Of a DNA stretch of 54,120 nucleotides, positions 23,926 through 43,335 are shown one piece after another. The DNA is from a virus: IMG/VR virus record IMGVR_UViG_3300009788_000118, positions 1-54,120 of that record. One strand, given 5' to 3'. Under the pieces are notes generated by a model. The model saw only the letters and a list, made by a program, of their open reading frames with translations. It was not told the DNA's origin and did no database searches. A program made the position numbers and the translations under genes. Within the stretch, counting starts at the first letter, position 1. The number at the start of each line of letters is the position of its first letter.

Positions 23926-24228
23926 GAGATATAGACATGTTGACCCTTTCCAATTTGTGTAAAACGACCTCCGGACAGATAACTGGGAAATTAGGGAAAC
24001 TTGTAAGTGTTTGAAATTGTTGGAGAAAACGTGTTGTTTAATTGAGTTAAATATAGTGAGGGATAACTGGGGGATAACCTAGTTATTTCAACGACTTAGG
24101 AGGGGCCAGACCTTTACTCTGGGATAACTCTATCTAATTAGATGGATCAAATTAGTGTAACCGACTGAAATAACTAGGTTTTTAGCTCTACCCGTAACCC
24201 TCCGATTTTCTTGGAGAAATTGAGTTCC

Positions 24229-26112: not shown

Positions 26113-26575
26113 AGAGAAGTTGGGGGAAATGCAGTTTGAGCTTGATGAGCGGTTTCTAGAAGATCGTGCTAATGCGATGCAAATTCTAGAAGCGGGAGCA
26201 GTGAAATCCGCGAGGGTGGTGGTTCAAGCTGCAACCGAGGGAAGGGTTGGAAATGTTGATCCTGAAACGGGAGGTATCGATTACGAAACTGTTTCTGTAG
26301 CGAATCAGATTAAGTCGGCATGGGATGTACTCGATCACACCGGCAATAAGGCTCCAGAAAAGAGGTTAGTCGGGCATTTTGACGCCGCTGAGCTTGTGAA
26401 GGAGGCGTATGTTAGAAAGTATCCTAAAGAGGACAATGGAGGAAATGGTGATAAGCCTTCTTCAGGGAAGCCTCCAGAGACTTCACATGCATCCTCCGCT
26501 TTCGATAACTTGAATGAATCTTCCCCAAAGCCCGTGGATGAGGAAGTAAAATTTTTGGTGGAACAAAATCCATGA
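25976..26575 (+). CDS. terS-like: terminase small subunit
   Basis: Residues 8-50 (PRHMDIIRRLLVSETPGEIC, then LGMSESYLSVLQIDPLFKE) form the helix-turn-helix typical of small terminase DNA-recognition domains that bind the packaging site. A central helical region is for oligomerisation, and the Gly/Ser/Pro-rich C-terminus is flexible. It overlaps the large terminase by ATGA. The start has GAGGGAAGA close upstream. Confidence 0.8.
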   Translation: MLKRLKPRHMDIIRRLLVSETPGEICLELGMSESYLSVLQIDPLFKEKLGEMQFELDERFLEDRANAMQILEAGAVKSARVVVQAATEGRVGNVDPETGGIDYETVSVANQIKSAWDVLDHTGNKAPEKRLVGHFDAAELVKEAYVRKYPKEDNGGNGDKPSSGKPPETSHASSAFDNLNESSPKPVDEEVKFLVEQNP

Positions 26576-28062
26576 AAGACGCCGCCGATCTCAGTATAGA
26601 GGCAATGCAATTTTATGAAGGACACCCTGTAGATTTCTGTCAGGATCTTATTGAAGGTGTAGATTTCGACGACTGGCAAATTGAAGCATTTGATAACCTC
26701 GTTAATCATCATTTCGTAGCTATTGCAGCGGGATCAGGTGTAGGAAAAACTGTTTGGATCGCACTAGCTCTCTGCTGGTTCCTGGCCACAAAGCCATTTT
26801 CTAAAGTTCCATGTACGGCACCGAGCCAGCATCAACTTAACGACCTTCTTTGGGGAGAAGCACATAAGTGGATATCTCGCTCAGAGTTTTTATCGGGGAT
26901 GCTCGAATGGACACAAACGAAGATTGCGGTTAAGCGATATGCCCCTCAGTGGTATGCTGTCGCTCGAACTGCTCGAGTATCTCCACAGGGTCAAGTTGCA
27001 GAAGGTCTGCAAGGGTTTCATGCTGAAGAGAATCTGCTTTATATCATCGATGAGGCTTCAGGTGTCCCGGATGAAATCTTCCCAGCCGTTGAAGGAGCAT
27101 TAACAGGGAAGAAGGCGTATGCCATCTTAACAGCGAATCCTACAAGATTGGCCGGATATTTTTATTCAATATTTAATGATCTTAAAATGCGTGGGTTGTA
27201 TAAAACAATGCACGTATCCTGTTTAGACTCAAAGTTCGTTGACGATCGTTACATTAAAATGATGGAGGCAAGGTATGGAAGAAACCATCCGATCTGGCAA
27301 ATTAAGGTTGCTGGTGATTTTCCTACTGCGGATATTAACCTCTTATTTCCTCCTGCGGATGTGGAAGTCTTTAAGAATCATGATCCGATTGATCTTCGTG
27401 GCCTGCGCCTTCCGACTGAGCTTGGGTTGGATGTTGGCCGGACGACTAATAAATCTCTGCTGTGTGCACGTAAAGGTCCGGTTATTTTAGGATTTGAGGA
27501 GAAGAATCTTACGGGAGGTATTGCGGATACGATAGATGTTTTTGATTGGGCGTGTGATCTTATTAACGTCTATAATCCCAGTCTTGTGAAGGTTGACTGT
27601 ATCGGAATTGGTGCAGGAGTATATGACCTACTTGTAAGAATTTTTCCGAAGCTCATTAAGCCTGTCATCGGAAATGCGATGCCAGAGGAATCGAAGAAGG
27701 CGAGATATGCTAATCTGAGAGCACAGGGATATTGGGAACTGCGGGATATTATTAAATCATTATATTGTAAAGACATTCCCGACGACTTGATCAATCAGCT
27801 TAACGCGATTATGTACAAAATTCGAATGGGAAAGATTCTGATTCAAGCAAAAGATGAAATGGAAGAGTCTCCTGATTATGCAGATGCTCTAATGTATGCT
27901 TATATAGATGGAGATCTCTGTATTGATAAGGGAAACATTCTTCATTTTCCTATTAGTCTTGGAGTTATGAATGCAACTCTCGAAAAAACAAGTAGTTGGG
28001 ATAAGATAGGAAAAGATCGAGACGTACCTATATCAAACAAATGGGATATATTACATGCCTAG
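26572..28062 (+). CDS. terL-like: terminase large subunit
   Basis: The 496-residue packaging motor. Walker A is GSGVGKT at 54-60, Walker B is LLYIIDEAS with acid residues at 160-161, and ILTANPTR is the coupling motif. The nuclease half has LGLDVGR (D287), VKVDCIGIGAGVYD and a C-terminal DYADALMYAYID, matching the RNase H-like active site. It cuts and translocates DNA into proheads. It overlaps TerS and the portal gene. Confidence 0.95.
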   Translation: MKDAADLSIEAMQFYEGHPVDFCQDLIEGVDFDDWQIEAFDNLVNHHFVAIAAGSGVGKTVWIALALCWFLATKPFSKVPCTAPSQHQLNDLLWGEAHKWISRSEFLSGMLEWTQTKIAVKRYAPQWYAVARTARVSPQGQVAEGLQGFHAEENLLYIIDEASGVPDEIFPAVEGALTGKKAYAILTANPTRLAGYFYSIFNDLKMRGLYKTMHVSCLDSKFVDDRYIKMMEARYGRNHPIWQIKVAGDFPTADINLLFPPADVEVFKNHDPIDLRGLRLPTELGLDVGRTTNKSLLCARKGPVILGFEEKNLTGGIADTIDVFDWACDLINVYNPSLVKVDCIGIGAGVYDLLVRIFPKLIKPVIGNAMPEESKKARYANLRAQGYWELRDIIKSLYCKDIPDDLINQLNAIMYKIRMGKILIQAKDEMEESPDYADALMYAYIDGDLCIDKGNILHFPISLGVMNATLEKTSSWDKIGKDRDVPISNKWDILHA

Positions 28063-29269
28063 AGTAAGGTCAGATTTCCTCGAAATAGGAAAAACGGGGC
28101 TTAATTGGTCTGCAGGATACATCTATGATGAATTTTTATCAGCTCTTCGGGGGAAACGAGGGGTAAGAACTTACAGAGAGATGAAGGATAATGATGCAAT
28201 TGTTGGTTCAGTGTTGTTTGCAATAACTCAAATCCTTCGTGAAGCTAAATGGGATGTCCAAGTTCCAGATGGTGGAAAAGAGGAAGATGCCGAGTTCCTC
28301 CGTAGTAATATGACTGGTATGACCCACTCCTGGATGGACTTTTATACAGAGACTCTCTCGATGTTACCTTATGGATGGTCCTGGTTCGAGCAGGTTTATT
28401 ATCGGAGACCTGATAATAAAATCGGATGGAAGAAAATGGCCCCTCGAAAGCAGATATCTATGGAAAAATGGGAGATGAGTCCTGTGGGAGAGACGTTGGG
28501 TATGTGGCAGAGGCCTCCTCCAGATTATCAACTTTATTATCTTCCTATTGAAAAATCTTTGCATTTCCGTACCGAGCCGAACGGAAATAATCCTGAGGGT
28601 AGATCAATTATGAGGTCCGCATTCCGTCCCTGGTTCTTTAAGAAGAACATCGAAGAAATTGAAGGGATTGGAATTGAACGAGATCTCACTGGCCTCCCTG
28701 TTCTTAAGCTTCCAGAGGGTTTGAATCCTAATAGCGATGATACTAATATTCAGGTTCAGATCACAGCTGCAAAAAGATTGATATCTAACGTTCGTCGAGA
28801 TGAACAAGATGGAATTATTCTTCCATTTGGGTGGGAATTTGATCTTCTTGCATCGAAAGGAACTCGTCAGTTTGATACATCAACAATCGTCAATCGATTT
28901 AATAAAGAGATAGCAGTCACAGTTCTAGCTCAGTTTGTCATGCTTGGAATGGAGCGAACAGGGAGTTATGCACTTGCTAAAGAACAGACGGATATGTTTT
29001 ATCAATGTCTTGAGGGATGGATTGATGTTTTCATGACCACCGTTAATCGACATGCTGTCTCAAAATTGTTTCTTTTGAATGGTGTTATAGATAGACCGTT
29101 GCCGTATGTTGTACATACCCCGATAAGAAGGTTTAATTTGAAAGATCTTGCGGATTATGTGGCAAAACTTGGTGGCGATAAGGTTAATGCTTTGGATATT
29201 GATGCTGATGTCAAAAGCTTTTTAGCGAGATATGCTAGGCTCAAAGAATATAGCGAAGTTAGGAAATAG
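28055..29269 (+). CDS. portal protein, DUF935-like
   Basis: The 404-residue protein fits the Mu gp29/DUF935-like portal group: MKDNDAIVGSVLFAITQILR, then MDFYTETLSMLPYGWSWFEQ and WKKMAPRKQISMEKWEM. It forms the dodecameric DNA gate and sits directly after the large terminase as usual. It overlaps TerL by 8 bp. Confidence 0.85.
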   Translation: MPRVRSDFLEIGKTGLNWSAGYIYDEFLSALRGKRGVRTYREMKDNDAIVGSVLFAITQILREAKWDVQVPDGGKEEDAEFLRSNMTGMTHSWMDFYTETLSMLPYGWSWFEQVYYRRPDNKIGWKKMAPRKQISMEKWEMSPVGETLGMWQRPPPDYQLYYLPIEKSLHFRTEPNGNNPEGRSIMRSAFRPWFFKKNIEEIEGIGIERDLTGLPVLKLPEGLNPNSDDTNIQVQITAAKRLISNVRRDEQDGIILPFGWEFDLLASKGTRQFDTSTIVNRFNKEIAVTVLAQFVMLGMERTGSYALAKEQTDMFYQCLEGWIDVFMTTVNRHAVSKLFLLNGVIDRPLPYVVHTPIRRFNLKDLADYVAKLGGDKVNALDIDADVKSFLARYARLKEYSEVRK

Positions 29270-29642: not shown

Positions 29643-30467
29643 ATGAGCAAAGTATCCATCATAATACCAGCACGACATGAGCCGTATCTTCAAAAGACGA
29701 TCGATGTTATTTTGGAGGCAGCTGAAGGAGATATCGAAATTATAGCAATTCTTGATGGATATTGGCCAGATGTACCTATAAAAGATGATCCTCATGTCAA
29801 GCAGATTCACTTCTCGGAGTCAAAGGGTATGCGAGCGTCAATCAATGCAGGCGCAAGAATCGCACAAGGAAAATATCTATTGAAATGTGACGCTCATTGT
29901 TTATTTGATGAAGGTTTTGATAAAAAACTTAAGACGGATTGTCAACCTAACTGGACGGTTGTGCCTATAAGATACTCTCTTTGTGTTAGAATTTTAGATG
30001 GTAAATTGACAGATTGGTCACGAAAGATACATAAAAAGTACGAGTTTGAATATATTGCTTCTGATGACTTAAAAGGTAGAAAATGGCCTGAGTATGCTAA
30101 ACGAGTAGAAGGTCAGAAGATTGTAGATTTGATGACGTCCCAAGGTTCATGTTGGTTTATGCATCGAGATAGGTTTTGGGCATTGGGTGGAGAAGATGAA
30201 GTAAACTATGGACAAATGGGTCGAGAAGCTCAAGAAATTTGCCTAAAGACGTGGTTATCTGGAGGACGTTTTATTCTCACTCGAAATACATGGTATGCTC
30301 ATTGGAGCAAAGCAAGAGGAAATCCTAGATTTTTAAGCAGAGAAGAGAAACAAAAATCTGTTGATTTTGCCAAAGATTTTTGGTTAAATGATAGATGGTC
30401 TCTAGCTACTAAAAAACTGAGTTGGTTGATAGAAAAGTTTGCTCCGGTGCCGACATGGAACCTCTAG
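29643..30467 (+). CDS. GT27-like (polypeptide GalNAc-transferase-like) glycosyltransferase
   Basis: The 274-residue GT-A enzyme begins SIIIPARHEPYLQKTIDVIL (the nucleotide-sugar strand). LLKCDAHCLFDEGF has D-x-H-C (D83, H85) as in polypeptide GalNAc-transferases (GT27), where DxH replaces DxD. CWFMHRDRFWALGGEDEVNY and GQMGREAQEICLKTWLSGGR match the GT27 WGGEN-type motif with C-x-W-x-SGG, and AHW follows. Such enzymes put GalNAc on Ser/Thr of proteins. The ATG at 29643 has AAGGAGATATA upstream. It is a paralogue of the 32238 gene; the Ser-Pro repeat proteins downstream are candidate acceptors. Confidence 0.8.
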   Translation: MSKVSIIIPARHEPYLQKTIDVILEAAEGDIEIIAILDGYWPDVPIKDDPHVKQIHFSESKGMRASINAGARIAQGKYLLKCDAHCLFDEGFDKKLKTDCQPNWTVVPIRYSLCVRILDGKLTDWSRKIHKKYEFEYIASDDLKGRKWPEYAKRVEGQKIVDLMTSQGSCWFMHRDRFWALGGEDEVNYGQMGREAQEICLKTWLSGGRFILTRNTWYAHWSKARGNPRFLSREEKQKSVDFAKDFWLNDRWSLATKKLSWLIEKFAPVPTWNL

Positions 30468-31102
30468 AATATATAAAGAAGAAGTATGAGTTAGGTAGAT
30501 ATGGTGAATCAGTTCCTATAATTTTGTCTAAGGTTTTTAGAATTGGCATGTATGAACTTTTTAATGATCTTGGATATAAAATTGGATGTGAAGTAGGTGT
30601 TAGAGAAGGAAGAAATGCTGGAGAAATGATTCAAAAGATTCCAGGTTTGATGTTGTATTTGGTTGATCCATACAAAAATCATTCTTCTGCTCGAAGAAAG
30701 TATAGTGAGAAGCATTATGATAGAACGCAACGGAGAGCTCACCAAAGGTTAGATAAATTAAATGTGAAGTTTTTTGAGATGTTTAGTGAGCAAGCAGTAG
30801 AATTTGTAGAGGACAATTCGCTTGATTTTGTTTATATAGATGCAGATCATGATTATGATTTTGCAATGCAGGACATCATTATTTGGTCAAGAAAGGTTCG
30901 AAGTGGCGGGATTGTAAGTGGTCATGATTATTATCTTTCAAGGAGGCATGGACATCGAGGAGTAACCCATGCTGTTATTGATTATTCTAAGATGCTTTAT
31001 ATTTCCCCTTGGTTTTTGACTAGTTCTAGAGAAGAAGCTAAGGAAAGAAATGAGTATGGGCTTATTGATACTCTTCCTTCTTGGTTTTGGGTAAAGCCAT
31101 GA
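30455..31102 (+). CDS. class I SAM-dependent methyltransferase
   Basis: A 215-residue protein with the Methyltransf_24 layout: YKIGCEVGVREGRNAGEMIQ is the SAM-binding glycine-rich region (E-x-G-x-x-x-G), LYLVDPYKNH motif II, and LDFVYIDADHDYDFAMQDI motif III/IV. GGIVSGHDYYL follows. The ATG at 30455 overlaps the preceding gene by 13 bp. It probably methylates a sugar or other small substrate added by the cassette. Confidence 0.85.
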   Translation: MEPLEYIKKKYELGRYGESVPIILSKVFRIGMYELFNDLGYKIGCEVGVREGRNAGEMIQKIPGLMLYLVDPYKNHSSARRKYSEKHYDRTQRRAHQRLDKLNVKFFEMFSEQAVEFVEDNSLDFVYIDADHDYDFAMQDIIIWSRKVRSGGIVSGHDYYLSRRHGHRGVTHAVIDYSKMLYISPWFLTSSREEAKERNEYGLIDTLPSWFWVKP

Positions 31103-31950
31103 ATCCGATAACATGTGAAATAGATCCGAGCAATCGGTGTCAGAATAATTGTAGTTTTTGTATGTATAAAGACTACCGCAGTTTTAATTCTGTGGATATG
31201 TCTTTAGATATGTATTTGGAGCTCATTGGGGATTTGAAAGATATTGGTGTGAAATCGATTACTTTCACAGGCGGTGGTGAACCATTAATGAATCCGAATT
31301 TTAATGAGATGGCAGAAGAAGCTTATAAACTTGGATTCGAGTTGGGGCTTATTACTAATGGGATATCCTTGAATGATCTTAGCAATTTTGATGTCTTCAA
31401 ATTTATCAGAATCAGTTTGGATGCAGCCACAAGAGAAACCTACAGAGCTTTAAAGGGTAATGATGATTTTGATAGGGTGGTTGAGAATATAAGATGTATG
31501 CCTTTGTGTTATGATGTCGATGTTGGCATTAGCTTTGTGGTATGTGAATTAAATAGTCATGAGGTAGATAAAATACAGATATTAGCTGAAGAATTACCTG
31601 TTGAGTATCTCCAACTTAAGCCGATATATGGAACTAATCTTCCTAAAATCGATGCTTTTAATTCCACAATAATAACAGACAGGCACAAAATTTCTAATCA
31701 CCTTCCTTGCTATATAGCTGGTCTTGTGGGTGTTGCTACTGCTGATGGTAAAGTATGGTACTGCTGTCAGAAGCGTGGAGTAGAGGATTTTTGCTTAGGG
31801 AATTTAGATCAACACTCTTTTGCAGAGATTTGGCAAGATAGATGGGCATTCCATGAGAAAACGAGATCTTGTAAAACTTGTCGATATCAAAATTATGTAG
31901 AGGAGTTATATAATCCAACAAAAGTGGTGAGACATAGATGGTTTCTTTAA
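31099..31950 (+). CDS. radical SAM-SPASM protein
   Basis: The 283-residue enzyme has C14-x3-C18-x2-C21 (RCQNNCSFC), FTGGGEPLMNPNF (GGEP), and a C-terminal SPASM region WYCCQKRGVEDFCLGNL, then CKTCRYQNYV for two extra Fe-S clusters. SPASM enzymes typically modify peptides/proteins or aminoglycan sugars. The start overlaps the methyltransferase stop by ATGA. The substrate is unknown; in this position, modification of virion proteins or surface sugars is suggested. Confidence 0.88.
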   Translation: MNPITCEIDPSNRCQNNCSFCMYKDYRSFNSVDMSLDMYLELIGDLKDIGVKSITFTGGGEPLMNPNFNEMAEEAYKLGFELGLITNGISLNDLSNFDVFKFIRISLDAATRETYRALKGNDDFDRVVENIRCMPLCYDVDVGISFVVCELNSHEVDKIQILAEELPVEYLQLKPIYGTNLPKIDAFNSTIITDRHKISNHLPCYIAGLVGVATADGKVWYCCQKRGVEDFCLGNLDQHSFAEIWQDRWAFHEKTRSCKTCRYQNYVEELYNPTKVVRHRWFL

Positions 31951-31964
31951 AAAGGAGGAGAATC

Positions 31965-32237
31965 ATGATTAAGCAAAGTAACAGGTCTCCACAGATTGGG
32001 CAGTCGGAGGGTTTGGTCGGAGATATGAACTTTGGCTCGGCTATGAATGCAGTTTTAAATGGTGAGAGAGTGAGGCGATTAGATTGGGAAAACGAAGATG
32101 TTTTTCTTGCGATGAGAGATGAGCAACTTATGATTTTTAAACCGGAAGATAATATGCTCCATCCATTAACAGTTTCCGCGGGAGATATGGCAGGGACAGA
32201 TTGGATTGTGATAAAGAGGATGGAAGTGGTTCATTAG
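31965..32237 (+). CDS. DUF2829 protein, Tad2-like (anti-Thoeris)
   Basis: A 90-residue protein whose core MNFGSAMNAVLNGERVRRLD, W, then LHPLTVSAGDMAGTDWIVI, is the DUF2829 signature (an FGEAL...G..V.R..W opening and a DLLA.DWVI ending). DUF2829 is the family of Tad2, a phage protein that captures the Thoeris signalling molecule 1''-3' gcADPR. AAAAGGAGGAGAA precedes the ATG at 31965. It sits alone among the glycan genes. Functional identity rests on family membership. Confidence 0.82.
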   Translation: MIKQSNRSPQIGQSEGLVGDMNFGSAMNAVLNGERVRRLDWENEDVFLAMRDEQLMIFKPEDNMLHPLTVSAGDMAGTDWIVIKRMEVVH

Positions 32238-33977
32238 ATGACTGATCTCTCAATACTCATACCTGCTCGTAATGAGATGTTTCTTTCAAGAACTATTGAA
32301 AATATTCTTGAAAACATCGAAGGTGACACAGAGATTATTGCTGTGTGTGATGGCAACTGGCCAGATCCTACAGTTGAAGACCATCCAAGAGTGAATTTGA
32401 TTTATCACAGTGAGCCTATAGGTCAGCGAGCAGCAACAAATGAAGCAGCACGTTTATCTCAAGCAGAGTTTGTGATGAAGGCAGATGCACATTGTGCTTT
32501 TGATAAAGGTTTTGATGTTAAACTTATGGCGGATTGTAAGTATGATTGGACGGTTGTTCCACGAATGCATAATCTTCATGCTTTTAATTGGAAATGTGAA
32601 TTATGTGGTAATGAAACGTATCAAGGGCCTGAGCCAAAAAAATGTGAGAAATGTGGAAAATGTTGTATAGATACTATGTTTGAGAGAAAGATAATATGGC
32701 AGCGACGCGAAAATCGTAAATCAGATTACATGTGGTTTAATAAAGATTTAAAATTCTCTTATTTCGATAGAAGTCATTTAAAAGAATATGGTAATGACAT
32801 TTCTGCTCTTAAACATAAATATGCTCACTCTCGTCGAGATTGGGCAAAAGGAAAGATTACAGATCAGATGTGTGCGATTGGTGCATGTTGGATGATGCAT
32901 CGAAAACGATATTGGGAGTTAGATGGAGTTGACGAGGCTCATGGCTCTTGGGGTCAAATGGGTGTCGAAATTGCTATGAAAAGTTGGCTATCCGGTGGCA
33001 GGCAGGTTGTGAATAAGAATACTTGGTTTGCCCATATGTTTAGAACACAGGGCGGAGATTTTGGCTTTCCATATCCCCTAAGAGGAAAAGAAGTACAAAA
33101 TGCAAGAAAGTATTCTCAGAAGCTTTGGAAAGGAAATCTGTGGCCGAAGGCAATACGACCTTTATCATGGTTAATAGATCATTTTAGTCCTTTACCTGGA
33201 TGGGATGAGGAGTTGAAAAAGATGGATGAAGTTAAGAAACCTCAAATAAAAACCAAAAAAAGAGGGCTTACAAGAGGATTAGTTTATTATACTGATAATC
33301 GTTGTGAGGAACGAATCTTAGGTATAGTTCGGAGACAACTTACAAAAATATGCAAGGGTTATGAGATTATATCGGTGTCTCAATATCCAATAGACTGGGG
33401 AAGAAATATTGTGATGCCTTTTATACATAGCCCTCTGAGTATGTTCAAGCAGATGTTACGAGGTCTTCAAGAGAGTACAGCTGATATTGTGTTCTTTGCA
33501 GAAAATGATGTTTTATATCATTCATCTCATTTTGATTTTACTCCAACAGAGGAGAAAACTTTTTACTATGATCGGAATCGATGGGCAGTAGATACTGAAA
33601 CAGGAAAAACTGTCTTTTATCGATCTAATTGTGTTTCTTTGATGGTAGCTTTCAGAGAAGTTTTATTAAAGCATTATACTAAAAAGGTCGAGATTACAGA
33701 AAAAGATGGATTCAGAGGTCGTTTAGGATTCTCACCTCCGAAGGGATTAGAAGGTCCAGATAGGGTTGGTATTGCTCGATCTTATATGGCTGAGTTTCCT
33801 AGTGTAGATATCAGACATAATAATACTATGACGCGAAAACGCATGGAAAAGTCTATGTTTAGAAATGAACGATCATGCAAAGATTGGGCAGAATCCGATG
33901 GTGTTGTTGGATGGGGAAAAACAAAAGGACGATTTGATGAATTCTTGCGAGAAGTTGAGAGGGATAAGAAAGAGTAA
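32238..33977 (+). CDS. double glycosyltransferase: GT27-like domain with zinc knuckle insert, plus C-terminal GT domain
   Basis: The 579-residue protein starts SILIPARNEMFLSRTIENIL and has DAHC at 83-86, exactly as in the 29643 product, and a matching acceptor-side motif GQMGVEIAMKSWLSGGRQVV with AHMFR. A Cys-rich insert at 120-143 (CELC, then CEKCGKCC) is absent in the paralogue and probably binds zinc. From residue 340 a second domain begins (RGLVYYTDNRCEERILGIVR), with VFFAENDVLYH as a possible D-x-D-like site. Together the two domains could transfer two sugars. The gene joins the preceding one without a gap. Confidence 0.8.
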   Translation: MTDLSILIPARNEMFLSRTIENILENIEGDTEIIAVCDGNWPDPTVEDHPRVNLIYHSEPIGQRAATNEAARLSQAEFVMKADAHCAFDKGFDVKLMADCKYDWTVVPRMHNLHAFNWKCELCGNETYQGPEPKKCEKCGKCCIDTMFERKIIWQRRENRKSDYMWFNKDLKFSYFDRSHLKEYGNDISALKHKYAHSRRDWAKGKITDQMCAIGACWMMHRKRYWELDGVDEAHGSWGQMGVEIAMKSWLSGGRQVVNKNTWFAHMFRTQGGDFGFPYPLRGKEVQNARKYSQKLWKGNLWPKAIRPLSWLIDHFSPLPGWDEELKKMDEVKKPQIKTKKRGLTRGLVYYTDNRCEERILGIVRRQLTKICKGYEIISVSQYPIDWGRNIVMPFIHSPLSMFKQMLRGLQESTADIVFFAENDVLYHSSHFDFTPTEEKTFYYDRNRWAVDTETGKTVFYRSNCVSLMVAFREVLLKHYTKKVEITEKDGFRGRLGFSPPKGLEGPDRVGIARSYMAEFPSVDIRHNNTMTRKRMEKSMFRNERSCKDWAESDGVVGWGKTKGRFDEFLREVERDKKE

Positions 33978-34384
33978 TGGCTGAATTTCTAATACAAGCA
34001 AAAGGTCATTGGATGGATGCTATATCACAGTCAATCAAGGATACATGGGATGTGAAAATGCAGGCAAGGTTCGCCAGGAGAAACTTAAAGGGTAGTCCTA
34101 TCGTAGTTAGACCGGATGGTTGGAAGTGGGGAAAAAGTGAAAGATTGCCTGAATATATTGTAGTCAAAGTTCCAAGTATGACTGTTGCAGATGCAGAAGA
34201 ATATATTCTGCCTGAATATGGAACATTTCTAGGACCAAATGCTACAACCGTAGAAAAAAAAGTAAAGAGGAGAAAATACCAATTTGCAGTAAGCCAGGTT
34301 GATACACTAATTTCTTTGAGTCAGAATACTACAACTACAAGTAAGAATACTTTTATCAGCTTGACTGTTGATAGGACTAAATAG
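33977..34384 (+). CDS. hypothetical phage protein, 135 aa
   Basis: A mixed alpha/beta protein, starting MAEFLIQAKGHWMDAISQSI, with a Ser/Thr-rich C-terminus. It lies between the glycosyltransferase and the first fibre gene, overlapping the former by one base. It may be a virion protein. Family not recognised. Confidence 0.65.
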   Translation: MAEFLIQAKGHWMDAISQSIKDTWDVKMQARFARRNLKGSPIVVRPDGWKWGKSERLPEYIVVKVPSMTVADAEEYILPEYGTFLGPNATTVEKKVKRRKYQFAVSQVDTLISLSQNTTTTSKNTFISLTVDRTK

Positions 34385-36280
34385 ATGGCAGAAATAAAAA
34401 AGACGATAGAAGAAGATGGTAATGGAGATTATACTTCTCTTGAAGCCTGTATGAATGCTAATGAACAAGATCTTACAGATGCAGGAGGGGATTATTTTCT
34501 TGCTGAAATAAATGGTACAGAGTTAGGTGGAGCCTGGAATTCTCCTGATACTTCTCCTGTAGACATAGATGGATGGACTACCTCAGCAACAAGTTACATA
34601 TCAGTTTACACAACCTCTACAGCTATACATCCTGGTAACTGGTCAACAGGAAACAACGAATATAGATTAGTAGTGGGACATGGTGAGTGCATAACCATAA
34701 TCGAGCAGTATGTTAGAATCGATGGAATTCAGATGAGTTTTCAGGTTAATTACGACTCTAGCCATTATGCTATCCATGTTAGCCCTGATAGTAGTGATAC
34801 TGACCACCGAATATCTAATTGTATCCTAAAAGAAGTTGGAAGTTATACTGGAGAACATGGTATTCTATTTGCTTGGCTTCCTGCGCAAACCAATATGACT
34901 GCCAAAGTGTGGAACTGTGTTATGTATGATTTTGACGGAACCGGTCAGTCTGCGGTTCATATTAATAGTGAGGGAGATTGGACTGTTGATATATATAATT
35001 GCACTATTGATAATTGCGGGGCATACGGCATTGAAAATGCAGGAGGTCAGGCAGATTGTAGAGTTTATAATACAGGAGCAATCAACTGTGGTACTGCTGG
35101 ATTTTTAAATCTTGACGTAGATACAACAAACAGCACCACAGCACCTACATTTGTTGATATAGATGCAGAGGATTATCATCTTGCGGCTAGTGACGTTACT
35201 TGGACAGGTCAAGGGACTGATACTCCGAGTGGATATCAATCAAGTCTAGATATCGATGGAGAGACTAGAACAAGTACATGGGATATAGGGGCGGATGAGA
35301 ATTTGTTGGTAGCATCTCCCTCTTTATCACCAAGTATATCACCGTCTGCATCAGAATCTCCCAGCATTTCACTTTCTCCATCACCTTCGGTGTCTTCATC
35401 CGCAAGTTTAAGTCCTAGTGTGTCTCGAAGCGAATCTGCGAGTATTTCTCCATCGATATCGTCTTCATTATCACCTTCAGCTAGTTTATCACCTAGCATT
35501 AGTCCGAGCATTAGTCCTTCAATATCACTTTCTATATCTTCATCATTAAGTCCATCAGCATCGATAAGTCCTTCAATTAGTCCTAGTGAATCGGCTTCTA
35601 TATCACCATCAATTAGTCCATCTGTGTCTCCGTCAGCTTCTATTAGTCCATCTATATCTCCATCTGAATCTTTAAGCATTTCACCATCAATCAGTCCTAG
35701 TATTTCTCCATCTGCTAGTGTTTCTCCTAGTGTTAGTCCATCTATATCATTATCTATATCATTATCTATATCTCCATCTATATCTCCTTCAATATCACCA
35801 TCTGCTTCTGAATCGCCAAGTATATCATCCTCGATCTCTCCTAGTGTGTCACCATCTGCATCTATCTCTCCTTCAGCATCTGTATCCTCATCCATTAGTC
35901 TTAGTGAATCACCCTCAATTTCACCAAGTATAAGTCCTTCTGTTAGTCCAAGTGCAAGTATTTCACCATCGGCATCAATATCAGCATCTATTTCTCCAAG
36001 TCCAAGTTGTCCAGCAGGTTGTGCTGCATGTGAAGATTGTATAGAAGTAACATTTGCTGGTCTTTCAGGTACTTGTGAAGTTGGTTGTGTTGATTATAAT
36101 ACTACTTATACACTTAGTCAGGTTGCTGATACTTGTGTGTGGCAATATACTTCTGGTAATCTTGTTGTTTCTGTAACATGTTCTGCTTCGTATTGGTGGC
36201 TTAAGGTTGTAAATGATGGAACAGAGTGTGCAGTTTGGAAATATCCAACTGCAGATAGATCAGACTGTCCACGTTATTAA
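34385..36280 (+). CDS. beta-helix domain protein with long Ser-Pro repeat and Cys-rich C-terminus
   Basis: The 631-residue protein starts with a right-handed beta-helix-like half (EDGNGDYTSLEACMNANEQD and later repeated hydrophobic/Asn turns such as RISNCIL, VWNCVMYDFD, IYNCTID), as in phage tailspikes and pectate lyases. Residues about 309-541 are a Ser-Pro repeat with units SPSISPSAS, about half of them Ser. The last 90 residues contain about ten cysteines (CPAGCAACEDC). Probably a tail fibre or head decoration with an extended stalk, and a candidate glycoprotein acceptor for the cassette just upstream. Confidence 0.75.
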   Translation: MAEIKKTIEEDGNGDYTSLEACMNANEQDLTDAGGDYFLAEINGTELGGAWNSPDTSPVDIDGWTTSATSYISVYTTSTAIHPGNWSTGNNEYRLVVGHGECITIIEQYVRIDGIQMSFQVNYDSSHYAIHVSPDSSDTDHRISNCILKEVGSYTGEHGILFAWLPAQTNMTAKVWNCVMYDFDGTGQSAVHINSEGDWTVDIYNCTIDNCGAYGIENAGGQADCRVYNTGAINCGTAGFLNLDVDTTNSTTAPTFVDIDAEDYHLAASDVTWTGQGTDTPSGYQSSLDIDGETRTSTWDIGADENLLVASPSLSPSISPSASESPSISLSPSPSVSSSASLSPSVSRSESASISPSISSSLSPSASLSPSISPSISPSISLSISSSLSPSASISPSISPSESASISPSISPSVSPSASISPSISPSESLSISPSISPSISPSASVSPSVSPSISLSISLSISPSISPSISPSASESPSISSSISPSVSPSASISPSASVSSSISLSESPSISPSISPSVSPSASISPSASISASISPSPSCPAGCAACEDCIEVTFAGLSGTCEVGCVDYNTTYTLSQVADTCVWQYTSGNLVVSVTCSASYWWLKVVNDGTECAVWKYPTADRSDCPRY

Positions 36281-36293
36281 AAAGGTAAAATAA

Positions 36294-37703
36294 ATGGCAA
36301 CTCCTGTAATAGATAGTGTTGGTGCTTTAGTACATGGCCAGTCCTGTATTATTACCAGCACAGGCACTAATTTTGGTACTAAATCAGTTGCTGCTCCTAC
36401 TATGTGGGACGACGGTTCTGGAGTATCAGAAGGAGATCCACCAAGTTCAAAGGGATGGACAGGTAACTATCCAAGTGGTCTAACTGGTGGGAATGCACAA
36501 TATAATTTGCAATATCGTCCAGTTAATTATAGAAGCATAGCTGGTCCACATGGTATTACCAATTATTATTTAGCAGGATGTGGCTTAGGTTATGGTATTG
36601 CCGGAGCTGATACAGCTAATGTAATGGTATGGAAGTCATTAAGTATCTCAAAACCGCAGAAAGTTTTTATTAGTTTTTATCAGAGATTTGATCCGAGTTG
36701 GGTGTTTGGGGATGATAATAATATAAAGGAAGTGCTTTGGTCAGTAGGTACTCCTTATGGTCCCAGTTATTGGTATGTTACCTTTAATCCAGTCTTTAGC
36801 AGCCCTACCAATTTAGGAGAATGGAGAACTACCTGTGAATGGGGAAATGTGGCAACAAGCCCTTGGTTAGGCTGGGTAAAAGTCGAGATAGAGTTTCTCT
36901 TTGATAGTAGTGGTGGCAAGGCAGATATTTGGGATAATGGCGTACAGAAGACGTTTGCTACTTGCAATACAGATTCATGGAGTGGAACAGATCGTCATCT
37001 TTCAGTTGGAGGTTTTCAGCGTCCTCATTCTGATTGGGGTGGTGAACCTTATACTGATAATTTTCGTTATCAAGCAGATATTTATATAGATACAGCATGG
37101 TCAAGAGTAGTCATTGGTGATAATCAAACTTATGCAAATTGCACAAAAAGGGAAATACAAATTCCTACAGCATGGGCTACTGATGAAATAACAGTAACAG
37201 TTAATCAAGGTATTTTTTCTGCTGAGGATGATATATATGTATTCGTTATTGATTCGAATGGAGACCCGAATGTTACTGGTTATGGTCCATTAAGCTTTGG
37301 AGGTTCTGTAAGTCCATCGCCATCATCTTCAATATCACCGTCATCTTCAATATCACTATCACCGTCATCTTCATTATCTTTATCTCCGAGTTCTTCAGTA
37401 TCGCCTTCATCATCACCAAGTCCCTCAGGAGGTACGATTTCACCAAGTCCTTCATCTTCAATCTCTCCAAGTTTGAGTCCATCAGCAAGTATATCGCCTT
37501 CAGTGAGTCCAAGTCCTGAATGTCTTGGTGGGGGACAAGGTGATGAATTTAACGACGAATCTATCGATGTTTTATGGACACAAGATTCAGGAGTTGGAGG
37601 TTCCTTTGCGGAGACTGCTGGAGGTGATTTGGAAGTAACTTCTGGTAGTGGTAATATTTGGGGTTCTACATTTACTCCGACTTGGATTTATCAATGTGTA
37701 TGA
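36294..37703 (+). CDS. fibre-like protein with Ser-Pro segment and interrupted lectin-like domain (part 1)
   Basis: The 469-residue product starts TPVIDSVGALVHGQSCIITS (an IPT/TIG-like opening), followed by a large beta-sandwich like those of carbohydrate-binding proteins (WVKVEIEFLFDSSGGKADIW). A Ser-Pro stretch covers about residues 337-410. It then enters a DUF1349/concanavalin-like domain (DEFNDESIDVLWTQDSG) but stops at a TGA at 37701-37703. The same frame continues on the other side for 566 codons and carries the rest of that domain, so this is an in-frame stop in a longer protein (36294-39401). Confidence 0.7.
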   Translation: MATPVIDSVGALVHGQSCIITSTGTNFGTKSVAAPTMWDDGSGVSEGDPPSSKGWTGNYPSGLTGGNAQYNLQYRPVNYRSIAGPHGITNYYLAGCGLGYGIAGADTANVMVWKSLSISKPQKVFISFYQRFDPSWVFGDDNNIKEVLWSVGTPYGPSYWYVTFNPVFSSPTNLGEWRTTCEWGNVATSPWLGWVKVEIEFLFDSSGGKADIWDNGVQKTFATCNTDSWSGTDRHLSVGGFQRPHSDWGGEPYTDNFRYQADIYIDTAWSRVVIGDNQTYANCTKREIQIPTAWATDEITVTVNQGIFSAEDDIYVFVIDSNGDPNVTGYGPLSFGGSVSPSPSSSISPSSSISLSPSSSLSLSPSSSVSPSSSPSPSGGTISPSPSSSISPSLSPSASISPSVSPSPECLGGGQGDEFNDESIDVLWTQDSGVGGSFAETAGGDLEVTSGSGNIWGSTFTPTWIYQCV

Positions 37704-39401
37704 GGAGATTTTGATGTTTATATAAAAGTAACTGCTGCAGATATTAATATTTTTGCTGAGGCTGCTGGAATAATTTTTCAAGAGTTTGATCAACCAACTA
37801 ATTATAATATCTTTGTTTCTTTGGAATATTTTGGAGGTCTGATATATCAAAGACGAGATACTATTAATAATAGTAGTGATACAACAGATATTGGTGGTGC
37901 TGCAAGTCCATGTTGGCTTAGATTACGCAGGATAGGTCAGTATTTTTCAGCATATTATGCTACTGTTGAACCCACTCAATTAAATGATTGGATATTAATT
38001 AATGCTCCTATAGACTTAGTTACTTCTGCAAGGGGTTTTTTAGGTCATGGTGCTATTCATCCGGAGAGTGGTTCTCAGTTTGTATCTACTGTTGATTATT
38101 TTAGAGCTCCAGCTCCTGCATGGATATGGGATAGTGGTGTTTGCAATGAGGGGACAGTAGTAACAAATACGTGTTCTTCAGCTAGTATCAGTCCATCAAT
38201 ATCACCAAGTATATCTCCAAGTGCGAGTCTGTCTGCTAGTTTGAGTCCATCTATATCTCCATCTATATCTCCATCTGAGTCTCCTTCGATTTCTTCGTCT
38301 CCATCTCCAAGTTTAAGTCCATCTGCTTCTTTGTCTCCATCGTTGTCACTTAGCATATCTGCTTCGGTATCTCCTTCGATAAGTCCATCTGCATCGATTT
38401 CGCCTTCTATCTCACCATCTCCATCGGAGTCAGGAAGTCCAAGTTTATCTCCCAGTATCTCACCATCAGTATCACCTAGTGCTAGTTTATCATCTTCAAT
38501 CAGTCCAAGTGAGTCAGCATCTGTATCACCTAGCGTAAGTCCTTCAATCTCTCCAAGTTTGAGTGCTTCTATTAGTTCATCAGCTTCATTGTCTCCATCT
38601 ATATCTCTATCAATATCTCCATCAGTTAGTCTTTCGATTTCACCGTCTGTATCTCCAAGCATTAGCCCAAGTATTAGTCCCTCAGTTTCTCCGTCAGCGT
38701 CTATATCTCTTAGTTTGAGTCCATCAATTTCGCCAAGTATATCTCCGAGTGCTAGTATATCTCCGAGTTTATCTCCGTCTATATCTCCTTCAGTTAGTCC
38801 ATCAGCGTCGTTATCTCCGAGCATATCTCCAAGTATTTCTCCGAGTATAAGTCCAAGTGAATCTCCCAGTTTATCTCCATCAGTATCTCCATCTGCATCA
38901 ATTAGTCCATCTGAGAGTTTGTCGATATCTGCGAGTATATCACTTTCACTTTCACCTTCGATATCTCCTAGTGAGTCTCCAAGTATATCTGCAAGTGTAT
39001 CACCGAGTGAGTCTCCATCCATATCTCCAAGTGCAAGTTTGTCTCCAAGTTTATCTCCATCACTTAGTCCATCAATTTCACTGAGTTTGTCTCCATCACT
39101 TTCACCATCTGAGTCTCCGTCTATATCTTTTAGTCCTTCTCCATCACTTAGTCCATCAATCTCATTGTCATTAAGTCCATCGATTAGTCTGAGTATATCT
39201 CCAAGTCTAAGCCCTTCGGCTAGTGTTAGTCCTTCGCTTTCTCCAAGCATAAGTCCTAGTATTAGCCTAAGTGTTTCGCCTTCGATATCTCCATCACCCT
39301 CAGTATTTATTACTGAAAGGATGTTTGTTGCATTTTCAAGTACGAAACCTGATGTATCTTTTGAAGGCAGAAAACCAGATATCACTTTTACAGGAGATTA
39401 A
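37704..39401 (+). CDS. fibre-like protein, in-frame continuation (part 2): lectin-like remainder and 1.1-kb Ser-Pro repeat
   Basis: The frame directly behind the TGA reads GDFDVYIKVTAADINIFAEA, the second half of the DUF1349-like domain, then about 380 residues of Ser-Pro repeat (38174-39305), and a C-terminus KPDVSFEGRKPDITFTGD typical of phage fibre ends. No ATG with a ribosome site lies near; the earliest start would be a TTG at 37821, which would break the domain. Expression by readthrough, by a hidden start, or loss of function are all possible. Confidence 0.6.
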   Translation, partial: GDFDVYIKVTAADINIFAEAAGIIFQEFDQPTNYNIFVSLEYFGGLIYQRRDTINNSSDTTDIGGAASPCWLRLRRIGQYFSAYYATVEPTQLNDWILINAPIDLVTSARGFLGHGAIHPESGSQFVSTVDYFRAPAPAWIWDSGVCNEGTVVTNTCSSASISPSISPSISPSASLSASLSPSISPSISPSESPSISSSPSPSLSPSASLSPSLSLSISASVSPSISPSASISPSISPSPSESGSPSLSPSISPSVSPSASLSSSISPSESASVSPSVSPSISPSLSASISSSASLSPSISLSISPSVSLSISPSVSPSISPSISPSVSPSASISLSLSPSISPSISPSASISPSLSPSISPSVSPSASLSPSISPSISPSISPSESPSLSPSVSPSASISPSESLSISASISLSLSPSISPSESPSISASVSPSESPSISPSASLSPSLSPSLSPSISLSLSPSLSPSESPSISFSPSPSLSPSISLSLSPSISLSISPSLSPSASVSPSLSPSISPSISLSVSPSISPSPSVFITERMFVAFSSTKPDVSFEGRKPDITFTGD

Positions 39402-40211: not shown

Positions 40212-40670
40212 ATGAAGAAATTTTATTTTATAATATCTTTTCTTTTCTTCATTTATTTTCCTGTTAATGCGGCAATGGTTGACGATTTTCCAAAAGACAT
40301 AGGATCATTACTAATTACTGCTAAATATTTTGATGCCGATAATGAAATCGCTTGGCTGATTAGTCCTGCGACTGAAGATCGACTAACAGTAGGAATAGGT
40401 TATCATGCAGAGAAAGTAGCTGAAATGGAGACTCCATATGGAAAGCAGTATAGTATTCAAATGGAAGTAGATGCTCCAATTCTTTACTATTGGATAGATC
40501 GAAACAGTGATAATATGTTAATGATCGAACTTGAAGGAAAGTATTATTATGATGCTCGGGAAGTTGTTTATGATGAAGCGGGTGATGGCCTAAATGGAAA
40601 TGAGAAACCTTGGGAGATGTATCCAGTTTCATCTGAACCGTTAGATAAAACTAATTTTTCTCATGTCTGA
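40212..40670 (+). CDS. exported protein with signal peptide, 152 aa
   Basis: The N-terminus MKKFYFIISFLFFIYFPVNA is a clear Sec signal peptide with a cleavage site after VNA. The mature part is acidic and beta-rich. A secreted or periplasmic protein inside a virion operon is unusual; it may be a host-envelope modifier (moron-like). It overlaps the protease gene by 8 bp. Confidence 0.75.
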   Translation: MKKFYFIISFLFFIYFPVNAAMVDDFPKDIGSLLITAKYFDADNEIAWLISPATEDRLTVGIGYHAEKVAEMETPYGKQYSIQMEVDAPILYYWIDRNSDNMLMIELEGKYYYDAREVVYDEAGDGLNGNEKPWEMYPVSSEPLDKTNFSHV

Positions 40671-41259
40671 ACCAACTGGAGATGAACTACACATAGAGGG
40701 GTTTATAGATATGCCTTGGACAGTTGCAGATGTCGAAAGACATAATAAGAATTTATCAGATAAACAAAAGCGACAGTGGGTACATGTTGCTAATGATGCA
40801 TTGCAAAGATGTCTTGATGCAGGTGGAAAAGAATGTGAAGCGAGTGCGATCAAACAAGCTAATGCATCCGTCACTCAAAAAGATGGTGTCACAATGAAGT
40901 TTTTGAAAAGCCGCGAAGAAAAACAAATCCTTTATGGGATCATTTTTGAACCTGATTTTGTTGATGCCCATGATGAATTTGTAGAAAAAGATGACATTGA
41001 GGAAGCTGCTCATGGATATATGATCCGATTGCAAAACGAAAAAGGATCAATGATTAAATTAAGTCATCAAATTGAAATTGATAAAGAAGCAGATATCGTT
41101 GAATGTTATGTCGCCCCTGTAGATTTTGAAATGGGTGATGAAAAAGTTAAAAAAGGTTCGTGGGTTGTTGCAATAAAGATTTGGAATAAGGATCTTTGGG
41201 ATGCGACAAAGGATGAAATCTCTGGTCTGTCAGCTGGAGGGTGGAAAACATTCACGTAG
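40663..41259 (+). CDS. XkdF-type prohead protease with ChaB-like N-terminus
   Basis: Residues 18-70 (WTVADVERHNKNLSDKQKRQ, then WVHVANDALQRC and ASAIKQANASV) match the ChaB-like segment often fused to phage proteases. Residues 75-198 match the XkdF putative serine protease (GIIFEPDFVDAHDEFVEKDD, HGYMIRLQ, SHQIEIDKEADIVECYVAPV, WVVAIKIWNKDLWD). The usual linker after the protease (VSLV..PAN..FLL) is found in the gene beyond the HNH insertion instead, so the protease has been separated from its normal C-terminus. Confidence 0.85.
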   Translation: MSEPTGDELHIEGFIDMPWTVADVERHNKNLSDKQKRQWVHVANDALQRCLDAGGKECEASAIKQANASVTQKDGVTMKFLKSREEKQILYGIIFEPDFVDAHDEFVEKDDIEEAAHGYMIRLQNEKGSMIKLSHQIEIDKEADIVECYVAPVDFEMGDEKVKKGSWVVAIKIWNKDLWDATKDEISGLSAGGWKTFT

Positions 41260-41269
41260 TCTATGAAGT

Positions 41270-41299
41270 GTAAATTTACACCGTTAAAAATACAGAGAT
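41270..41299 (+). repeat. 30-bp dispersed semi-palindromic element, copy 7
   Basis: Reads GTAAATTTACACCG, then TTAAAAATACAGAGAT. It lies directly before the HNH endonuclease start at 41306, inside the inserted segment. Confidence 0.75.
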
Positions 41300-41305
41300 G
41301 AGTTT

Positions 41306-41698
41306 ATGGAGCAGTGGAAGAAAGTTAAGGATTATCCAGATTATGAAGTTTCTGATCAAGGTAGAGTAAGATCTTATAAAAGATCTGGACCACCGCAGAT
41401 TCTTCAAAATGTTTGTAGTAATTATTGTCAGGTTTCGCTTTATAATGAACACGGTGTAAGGAACTTTTTAGTTCATTTACTTGTAATTAAAGCTTTTATA
41501 GGCCCACGTCCTGATGGTTGCGAAGCAGATCATGAAAACGGTAAGCATCGAGATAACAAACTATCTAATCTTCGATGGTTAGAAGTTTGTGCTAATAGAA
41601 AGCATAGGTTTAAACCTAAAATGATCGAGAAAGCTAGATCACAAAAGATATGGGATGATTTAGTAAAAAGATTTCAAAAGGAGGAATGCCATGCCTAA
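41306..41698 (+). CDS. NUMOD4-HNH homing endonuclease
   Basis: The 130-residue protein starts EQWKKVKDYPDYEVSDQGRV (NUMOD4 DNA-binding motif) and has GCEADHENGKHRDNKLSNLR with WLEVCANRKH, the HNH active site of the H-N-H type with ADH...DNKLSNLRW. It is a mobile endonuclease placed between the protease and scaffold genes, where it splits a normally joined region. It carries its own upstream element and overlaps the next gene by 8 bp. Confidence 0.92.
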   Translation: MEQWKKVKDYPDYEVSDQGRVRSYKRSGPPQILQNVCSNYCQVSLYNEHGVRNFLVHLLVIKAFIGPRPDGCEADHENGKHRDNKLSNLRWLEVCANRKHRFKPKMIEKARSQKIWDDLVKRFQKEECHA

Positions 41699-42899
41699 AA
41701 AGATCAAACCTAGTATAGAGGAAATTTCTTTAGCATTTCAGCCAGCCAATCTAAAGAAGTTTCTTTTGAGAAAGGATCAAAAAAGTCTATTGAAGTATAA
41801 AGGAGTTGAAACGATTGCGTGGGATGTTAATAAAGATACATTTGAATCATATCGAGATATGTATTTCAAGGAAATGAATATAAAAAATGATCATACTTCA
41901 ATATTTAAGAATGCATCTCGAGCTATGAAAGAATGGATCGCTGATAAGAGTCTACTCGGTGATCCAGAGGGTAGTAGCTGGAGTGATGTCAATAACCTGC
42001 CTGTGGTAAACCCGCATACAGGTAAACTTAACAAGGAGGCTTTAGAAGCTGTATTCAATGGTAGTGATGTAACAGAGGCCATGAAAAATGCAGCCAAGAA
42101 CCTTCTTGAAAAAGGGTTCTCGAAGCAAGACTCGATGCTTCAGAAAGTGTTATCCAAATTCTTTAAGAAAGGAGATTCAAGTATGGATAAAGCGAAGATG
42201 ATCGAACTTTTGATCACAGATGAAAGATATCCATTTGGCAAAGACGATCAACCAACCTTGGAGCAGTTAGAAGTGAAAACGCTTCAGTTAATGGTTGATA
42301 TGAAAAAAGATGGAATCGATGAGGCAGCAATCCGAGAGAAGCTCACGAAGGAGCTCACGAAAAGCCTTACCAAGGATTTGACAAAGATGTTGACTGAAAA
42401 GATCACTAAGGATCTTAAACTCTCAAGTGATGACAAGGTCAAACTCCTTAACGATGAAATTGCAACCTTTAAAACTACCATCGAGAAGTTGACGAAAGAG
42501 ATCAACGACACAAAGGCTATGGCGATGGCTGAAGCTGATGTGAGAAAGACGATGGAGTTTACCCAATTCATCAAGGACAATAACGTTCCTGGTGATATCG
42601 AAAAATTGACGAAGACGATGCTGGGCCTCTCAAAGGGCGATCCAGAGATCTTCAAAACCTACAAAGAAAGTCTTCAAGCTGCGGGTGCAGCGTTAACAGC
42701 TGCTGGTGTTTTCTCCGAAGTTGGTGGTGTTGGAGATGGAGAAAGTAGCGATTCTGCATATTTGCAACTGCAATCATTGAAGGTTGAAGCCATGAAAAAG
42801 GATAGCAACCTCACCGAGCTTAAAGCTTGGAAGGCTGTTATTAAAGGAAACTCCAAGCTCTATCAGGAGTACATGGCTGAAAAGAAGGAGGTCAAGTAA
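41691..42899 (+). CDS. scaffold-like coiled-coil protein with protease-linker N-terminus
   Basis: The 402-residue protein begins IKPSIEEISLAFQPANLKKF with LLRKD, the linker that normally follows an XkdF-type protease. The rest is charged and helical, with heptad-like KLTKELTKSLTKDLTKMLTE and a long coiled coil at 225-290, as in capsid scaffolds. It lies directly upstream of decoration and capsid genes. AAAGGAGGAATGCC precedes the start. Confidence 0.75.
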   Translation: MPKKIKPSIEEISLAFQPANLKKFLLRKDQKSLLKYKGVETIAWDVNKDTFESYRDMYFKEMNIKNDHTSIFKNASRAMKEWIADKSLLGDPEGSSWSDVNNLPVVNPHTGKLNKEALEAVFNGSDVTEAMKNAAKNLLEKGFSKQDSMLQKVLSKFFKKGDSSMDKAKMIELLITDERYPFGKDDQPTLEQLEVKTLQLMVDMKKDGIDEAAIREKLTKELTKSLTKDLTKMLTEKITKDLKLSSDDKVKLLNDEIATFKTTIEKLTKEINDTKAMAMAEADVRKTMEFTQFIKDNNVPGDIEKLTKTMLGLSKGDPEIFKTYKESLQAAGAALTAAGVFSEVGGVGDGESSDSAYLQLQSLKVEAMKKDSNLTELKAWKAVIKGNSKLYQEYMAEKKEVK

Positions 42900-42901
42900 T
42901 T

Positions 42902-43273
42902 ATGGCCGTCGAACTAGAGATTTTTGATATTGGCGTATTGAAGGCCGATGCTGATCGTAGCGGGAAACAGTTTTATTTCATGAAGATGTCTTCCACTGAT
43001 TTCACATTCAGTCTCTGTGGAGCTGGTGAGGTTCCTTTAGGCATTCTTCAGAATAAGCCTGCTGCTGCAGGACGAGCTGGCCAAATTCGTCGAGTTGGAC
43101 TCTCCAAGTTAGTTCTTGGAGGCACTGTGGCTGCAGGAGGTTTGATTAAGTCCGATGCAGCTGGCGCAGGAGTTGCTGCTGATACGAATAACGACAACTA
43201 CGGTGCCATGTGTCTCGAAGGTGGGGACTCCGGAGATACCGTCACGGTTTTGATGGAATTCGGCGAAGTTTAA
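42902..43273 (+). CDS. capsid decoration protein, DUF2190-like
   Basis: A 123-residue beta-rich protein with GEVPLGILQNKPAAAGRAGQ, then LGGTVAAGGLIKSDAAGAGV and TVTVLMEFGEV. This is the layout of the small decoration protein found between scaffold and major capsid protein in many phages. Expected to stabilise the head. Confidence 0.8.
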   Translation: MAVELEIFDIGVLKADADRSGKQFYFMKMSSTDFTFSLCGAGEVPLGILQNKPAAAGRAGQIRRVGLSKLVLGGTVAAGGLIKSDAAGAGVAADTNNDNYGAMCLEGGDSGDTVTVLMEFGEV

Positions 43274-43335
43274 ATCTTAATCTTTAACGCATTAAACTTT
43301 ACTTTGATTAATCTTTTAAATGAAAGGAGCATCTA

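Follow-up and report, generated by a model that had tools for sequence, protein, structure and literature searches.

A phage gene cassette that couples paired GT27-like glycosyltransferases to serine-proline stalk proteins: a probable protein O-glycosylation system

We have identified, in a 54,120-base virus record (the window, by which we mean the whole stretch of DNA that was analysed), a gene cassette that probably directs phage-encoded protein O-glycosylation, with two GT27-like enzymes as initiators that would decorate the stalks of the array proteins encoded in their neighbourhood. A mucin-like system of this kind had been put forward in an earlier sequence-only reading of the window. 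Our analysis supports that interpretation without showing which sugar is transferred (GalNAc as opposed to GlcNAc or another), that the arrays are the acceptor, or that the products are located on the virion. To our knowledge, mucin-type O-glycosylation counts as a trait of eukaryotes. Our literature searches found no description of such a phage cassette and, as far as the literature searched shows, paired GT27-like initiators genetically tied to a presumed acceptor have not been described in phages. A search of 50,697 phage records gave no match.

The window encodes a terminase, a portal, a head maturation protease and a major head protein. A ten-kilobase plus-strand insertion lies between the portal and protease genes, and its content is the run of genes from P1 to array protein B in the following list.

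26572-28062, plus strand: terminase large subunit (PHROG terminase, 1e-35), a head gene immediately upstream of the cassette
28055-29269, plus strand: portal (PHROG portal, 2.1e-69), likewise a head gene immediately upstream of the cassette
29643-30467, plus strand: P1, a clade-A GT27-like glycosyltransferase of 274 aa with an ATG start; D83-x-H85 and H220 are invariant in the family
30422-31102, plus strand: Methyltransf_24 methyltransferase (PF13578, 2.5e-12), a candidate sugar-modifying enzyme
31081-31950, plus strand: radical SAM/SPASM enzyme of unknown substrate (PF04055, 7.8e-20; PF13186, 4.7e-7)
31938-32237, plus strand: Tad2-like (Thoeris anti-defence 2-like) small protein (PF11195, 1.7e-8)
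32238-33977, plus strand: P2, 579 aa, a clade-B GT27-like domain with a CxxC...CxxC zinc-ribbon insert, followed by a second GT-A-like domain
about 33210-33974, plus strand: second GT-A-like domain of P2
33977-34384, plus strand: 135-aa protein of unknown function without a Pfam match, between P2 and array protein A
34385-36280, plus strand: array protein A, 631 aa, with a folded N-terminal part, an (S-x) array and a Cys-rich C-terminal domain
35315-36010, plus strand: Ser-Pro array 1, 232 aa, Ser at alternate residues
36294-39401, plus strand: array protein B, a 1035-codon frame interrupted by one in-frame TGA and comprising two stalks and two lectin-like domains (recognized by eye)
37305-37430 and 37434-37517, plus strand: Ser-Pro array 2, two short blocks of 42 and 28 aa
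37701-37703, plus strand: isolated in-frame TGA, in the second lectin-like domain of array protein B
38178-39305, plus strand: Ser-Pro array 3, 376 aa
40663-41259, plus strand: head maturation protease
41691-42899, plus strand: unnamed 402-aa protein
42902-43273, plus strand: member of a PHROG head scaffolding family
43336-44346, plus strand: major head protein

The cassette sits within the head gene block, with terminase and portal upstream and the genes at 40663-44346 downstream. The Tad2-like protein inside it is probably a passenger. The N-terminal part of array protein A had no match in the Pfam search, and no signal peptide was found in this protein. Elsewhere in the window, at about position 24000, a change in the sign of the GC skew coincides with a switch in gene direction from minus to plus, delimiting divergent replication and structural arms.

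Whether the window encodes two or three Ser-Pro proteins had been left undecided. The count of two stands and that of three does not, since the open reading frames 36294-37703 and 37821-39401 share a single frame (36294-39401). This frame remains open for 565 codons beyond the TGA at 37701-37703, and a relative that is 45% identical (from locus L011) has no interruption at the corresponding site. Readthrough, a nonsense mutation or an assembly error are all possible explanations for the TGA. TGA is recoded in some Patescibacteria; recoding in the window was considered and rejected, because TGA is the commonest stop among the 45 window genes checked (21/45) and the TGA at 37701 is isolated.

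P1 and P2 are 52% and 42% identical over two segments, and both carry the motifs D83-A-H85-C and GQMG...W-SGG that were listed when they were first described as polypeptide-GalNAc-transferase-like. Across a family of 104 sequences, T19, D83, H85, P108, G168 and H220 are invariant, and D83, H85 and H220 align to the DxH motif and C-terminal histidine of GalNAc-T1, so that both the DxH and the metal-binding histidine are in place. Comparison of the 104-member family profile with all PDB sequences returned GT27 enzymes as the best 14 matches (3.8e-16, positions 3-256); the match spans the whole catalytic domain, as required for full-length GT-A homology, and the full-length match 8uhv is Toxoplasma GalNAc-T3. 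Generic GT2 matches to the profile cover the N-terminal half only, at 1e-9 or weaker. The AF2 model of P1 has a pLDDT of 96.2 and a pTM of 0.93, and all of its 50 best matches among PDB folds are GT27. For P2, GT27 again ranks first in the PDB comparison. Membership of a polysaccharide-only GT2 group, which would have refuted the sequence-only reading, is thus not what the structure and profile comparisons give: they group the enzymes with GT27. A survey of GT-A enzymes found that DxH replaces DxD in GT27 and GT60, both of which are Ser/Thr polypeptide transferases, and that one GT-A clade unites GT27, GT60, GT7 and GT2-CHS (PMC7185993).

These comparisons establish the family of the enzymes, their fold and their conserved catalytic residues. 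Two features count against our main reading. Sequence identity to GT27 is only about 18%, and the ricin-type lectin domain that GT27 enzymes usually have is lacking, P1 being a catalytic domain alone and P2 carrying another GT-A-like domain in its place. Because this lectin domain is absent and GalNAc transfer to peptide has not been shown, we use the name GT27-like rather than GT27. The zinc-ribbon insert of P2 (residues about 120-163), which like the second GT-A-like domain had previously gone unmentioned, sits in the GT27-like domain; it occurs in part of clade B and has weak similarity to ribosomal protein eL37. An FCB group MAG (L239) has a 944-aa open frame in which two domains of the GT27-like family are joined (G041:C145:30716-32407).

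The association of enzymes with arrays was assessed from both sides. Among 50 independent, de-duplicated IMG/VR loci found by the enzyme alone, 39 contain 40 or more residues of (Ser-x) array, compared with none of 120 random loci (p = 9e-29). The random loci were drawn with a random 14-mer; terminase-based sampling was dropped, as it gave only 2 relatives. All 132 arrays share their strand with the enzyme, at a median distance of 524 bp. In the reverse direction, an array-only DNA pattern led to 47 contigs with long complex arrays, and the enzyme is found on 26 of the 31 that are at least 20 kb long (0 of 50 random contigs) and on 5 of the 16 shorter ones. An initial, looser pattern had picked up mainly plain (SP)n runs together with chance matches, in no case with the enzyme in the locus, and was replaced by this stricter one. 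Co-occurrence in other phages had been named in the sequence-only reading as a check and is borne out here; the opposite outcome, Ser-Pro proteins mostly without such enzymes, would have refuted it and is not observed on the contigs of at least 20 kb. These counts also mean that a Ser-rich, acceptor-like gene adjoins glycosyltransferases, as in loci for serine-rich-repeat (SRR) adhesins. The genetic coupling is tight and directly demonstrated; that the arrays supply the peptide acceptor is an inference. Weighing against our main reading are five array contigs that reach 20 kb or more and in which no GT27-like enzyme was detected, and some Patescibacteria MAGs that have the enzymes without arrays within 10 kb. 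Array genes lacking a detected GT27-like enzyme include one beside a sulfotransferase (L214:1342-1929) and one beside a radical-SAM enzyme and an epimerase (L198:10624-13059), neighbours that hint at other routes of decoration.

The layout of the cassette is conserved: an array comes first, followed by the clade-A enzyme, 0-8 small genes, the clade-B enzyme and a further array. Of 65 viral loci, 48 hold a single A enzyme and a single B enzyme; A comes before B in 60 of 62, and in most loci the two share a strand. The trees of clades A and B show a significant, though weak, signal of co-evolution (Mantel r 0.20, 3/2000 permutations), and hence joint inheritance of the pair is no more than loose. 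The 110 open reading frames located between the enzymes include Methyltransf_24 (27, the commonest), Glycos_transf_2 (12), Glyco_tranf_2_2 (10), GT7C (6), GT17 (3), radical SAM (3), sulfotransferase (2), GT29, a sialyltransferase family (2), DegT (2) and epimerase (2) members. The composition of the cassette is thereby documented, and by its domain assignments the intervening set is predicted to be a glycan-building one. The methyltransferase (PF13578) and radical-SAM/SPASM enzyme of the window are genuine, and both types recur in this set, which lends support to the suggestion that they extend the decoration. Across loci the cassette is flanked by genes for terminase, portal, major head protein, head-tail adaptor and tail sheath, in varied phage types.

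The long Ser-Pro repeats of the window are present as originally described, with Ser at alternate residues and boundaries that had been placed correctly to within 1-4 bases. Their Ser codons comprise 241 TCN and 111 AGY, and all six Ser codons are used over the 36,330 array residues of the viral loci. Since TCN and AGY are both used and lie two substitutions apart, Ser is selected at the protein level. DNA slippage as the origin of the arrays was considered and rejected, the Ser codon sets being mixed and tandem repeats few. In the viral array residues, Pro hardly ever occupies neighbouring x positions (0.10 of expectation) and is over-represented at alternate ones (1.35 of expectation), giving SPSx units. 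An array-type peptide is SPSISPSASLSPS. Pro recurs at about every fourth residue of the stalks, and its position relative to each SPSx Ser is either +1/-3 or -1/+3. These are positions at which GalNAc-transferases favour Pro, and the array grammar, as read from sequence, fits those preferences (PMC9950641). Human GalNAc-T2 acts preferentially on Thr (PMC9950641). Thr is rare in most arrays, which use Ser nearly throughout, the exceptions being two loci (L062 and L054) with Ser/Thr-Pro versions; this mismatch with the Thr preference is a further point against our main reading.

We regard it as a serious possibility, though short of an even chance, that the arrays are glycosylated with GlcNAc or some other sugar, in a GT60-like manner or one like that of the GtfA/B enzymes of SRR adhesins. 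This would be a sub-case of stalk glycosylation and does not exclude it. Ser-only arrays are nearer to the bacterial SRR adhesins than to Thr-rich mucins, and donor specificity cannot be read from the present data, leaving GalNAc as an inferred sugar. The DxH motif is itself common to GT27 and GT60 (PMC7185993). Against this, all of the top structure and profile matches are to GT27.

It is unlikely, in our assessment, that the enzymes instead make a polysaccharide or alter a host surface glycan, with P2 as a tandem polymerase resembling K4 chondroitin polymerase (K4CP) and the arrays as unglycosylated stalks of receptor-binding proteins in a shared host-interaction island. In K4CP-type polymerases, alternating sugars are transferred by a pair of GT-A domains whose metal motifs are DxD/DxE. 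K4CP does align with P2 over both of its tandem GT-A domains, which also counts against our main reading, and nucleotide-sugar epimerases and aminotransferases are encoded nearby; moreover, GT2-CHS, GT7 and GT27 belong to one GT-A clade (PMC7185993). However, P1 and the N-terminal domain of P2 have DxH, which ties them to two polypeptide-transferase families (PMC7185993), and their best matches are to GT27 across the full catalytic domain. The second domain of P2 has the motif EHD/END, and no credible sequence match to it was found in the PDB or Pfam; there is no evidence of polymerisation. The arrays are coupled to the enzymes as adjacent genes on a single strand, and a polysaccharide pathway offers no explanation for protein-level selection of Ser at alternate residues with all six codons in use. 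Glycosylation of modified phage DNA bases, with the methyltransferase acting on DNA, can be set aside as highly improbable: phage DNA glucosylation is known and a PHROG matched by the methyltransferase bears the name 'DNA methyltransferase', but the domain matched in this enzyme is Pfam Methyltransf_24 rather than a DNA methylase domain, the structural matches are to peptide-acting enzymes, and the array coupling would have no explanation.

Returning to O-glycosylation of the stalks, export signals are missing from the array proteins. A hydrophobic N-terminus is present in only 1 of the 96 viral array open reading frames with a complete 5' end, none of which has a C-terminal anchor, and in 1 of 26 from MAGs; the signal-sequence export of SRR-like loci is therefore not matched. 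Because signal peptides are lacking and the genes lie among head genes, the array proteins are most likely virion fibres. It is simplest to read these proteins as virion fibres that are produced in the cytoplasm, and we infer both this virion location and the role of the fibres. In the scheme we propose, P1 and P2 would act as paralogous, soluble DxH-type GT-A enzymes that put sugar on many Ser of the (Ser-x)n stalks. The second domain of P2, the methyltransferase and the radical-SAM enzyme would then extend or cap the glycans, as other glycosyl-, sulfo- and methyltransferases may do in relatives. The resulting stiff stalks would space folded lectin/adhesin domains, and the fibres may serve in attachment or shielding. 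The absence of biochemistry weighs against this reading.

The cassette shares elements with several known systems. With the eukaryotic GT27 mucin-type system it has in common the GT-A fold, DxH and C-terminal His, the top profile and structure matches, a Ser/Pro-rich tandem acceptor region, and several initiating paralogues followed by extension enzymes. It differs in that the phage enzymes are soluble, are encoded by phages and Patescibacteria, have neither ricin lectin domain nor membrane anchor, lie in one operon with their presumed acceptor, face Ser instead of Thr, and use an unknown donor. In the Gram-positive SRR adhesins (GspB, Fap1, PsrP) an alternating-Ser stalk is glycosylated in the cytoplasm by adjacently encoded enzymes, with GT-B initiators (GtfA/GtfB), lectin-like binding domains and accessory Sec export. 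The long alternating-Ser stalk, the glycosyltransferase genes beside it and the lectin-like domains recur here, whereas the phage initiators are GT27-like GT-A enzymes, an export signal is missing, and the surrounding genes are phage head genes. In mycobacteriophages (Che8 and relatives), virion proteins are modified by glycosyltransferases that the phage itself encodes, with an effect on immune recognition (Freeman et al. 2023, cited in PMC11256854), the target being the major capsid protein (PMC11256854). Our cassette likewise encodes phage glycosyltransferases, which are presumed to act on virion proteins; Ser-Pro stalk arrays and paired GT27-like initiators are not described in the text consulted (PMC11256854).

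One scan, which covered 84,980 genomes of bacteria and archaea, yielded 53 loci, mostly in Patescibacteria MAGs. In the tree, these cellular loci are intermixed with phage sequences, with at least 18 label changes forced by well-supported branches. Our data suggest, and do not show, that many cassette phages infect Patescibacteria. Prevalence in this group is low (4 of 287 genomes, the centre genome included), and a widespread cellular function there, which we considered, is not supported at this frequency. On a Woesebacteria chromosome (CP066693.1; locus L269) the cassette lies amid cellular genes, its array protein has no export signal, and no cluster of phage head or packaging genes that would mark a prophage is evident nearby. 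In this locus and two others (L279 and L258), Ser-x array genes accompany a GT27-like cassette on Patescibacteria contigs that are 455-917 kb long; the surroundings of L269 and L279 look cellular (adjoining TatC, for example), and the array proteins of all three are without signal peptides.

With somewhat better than even confidence, we propose that the enzymes represent a prokaryotic-viral branch of DxH polypeptide O-glycosyltransferases that is sister to GT27 and GT60. They would be the paired initiators of a self-contained mucin-like assembly line, with GT7-, GT17- and GT29-like extension and methyl and sulfate caps, that coats phage fibre stalks in the cytoplasm and has been exchanged with the ultra-small Patescibacteria. 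If this is true, relatives of mucin-type chemistry exist in uncultured phages and candidate-phyla bacteria, which would bear on the origin of GT27 and GT60 and define a sugar-coated virion fibre.
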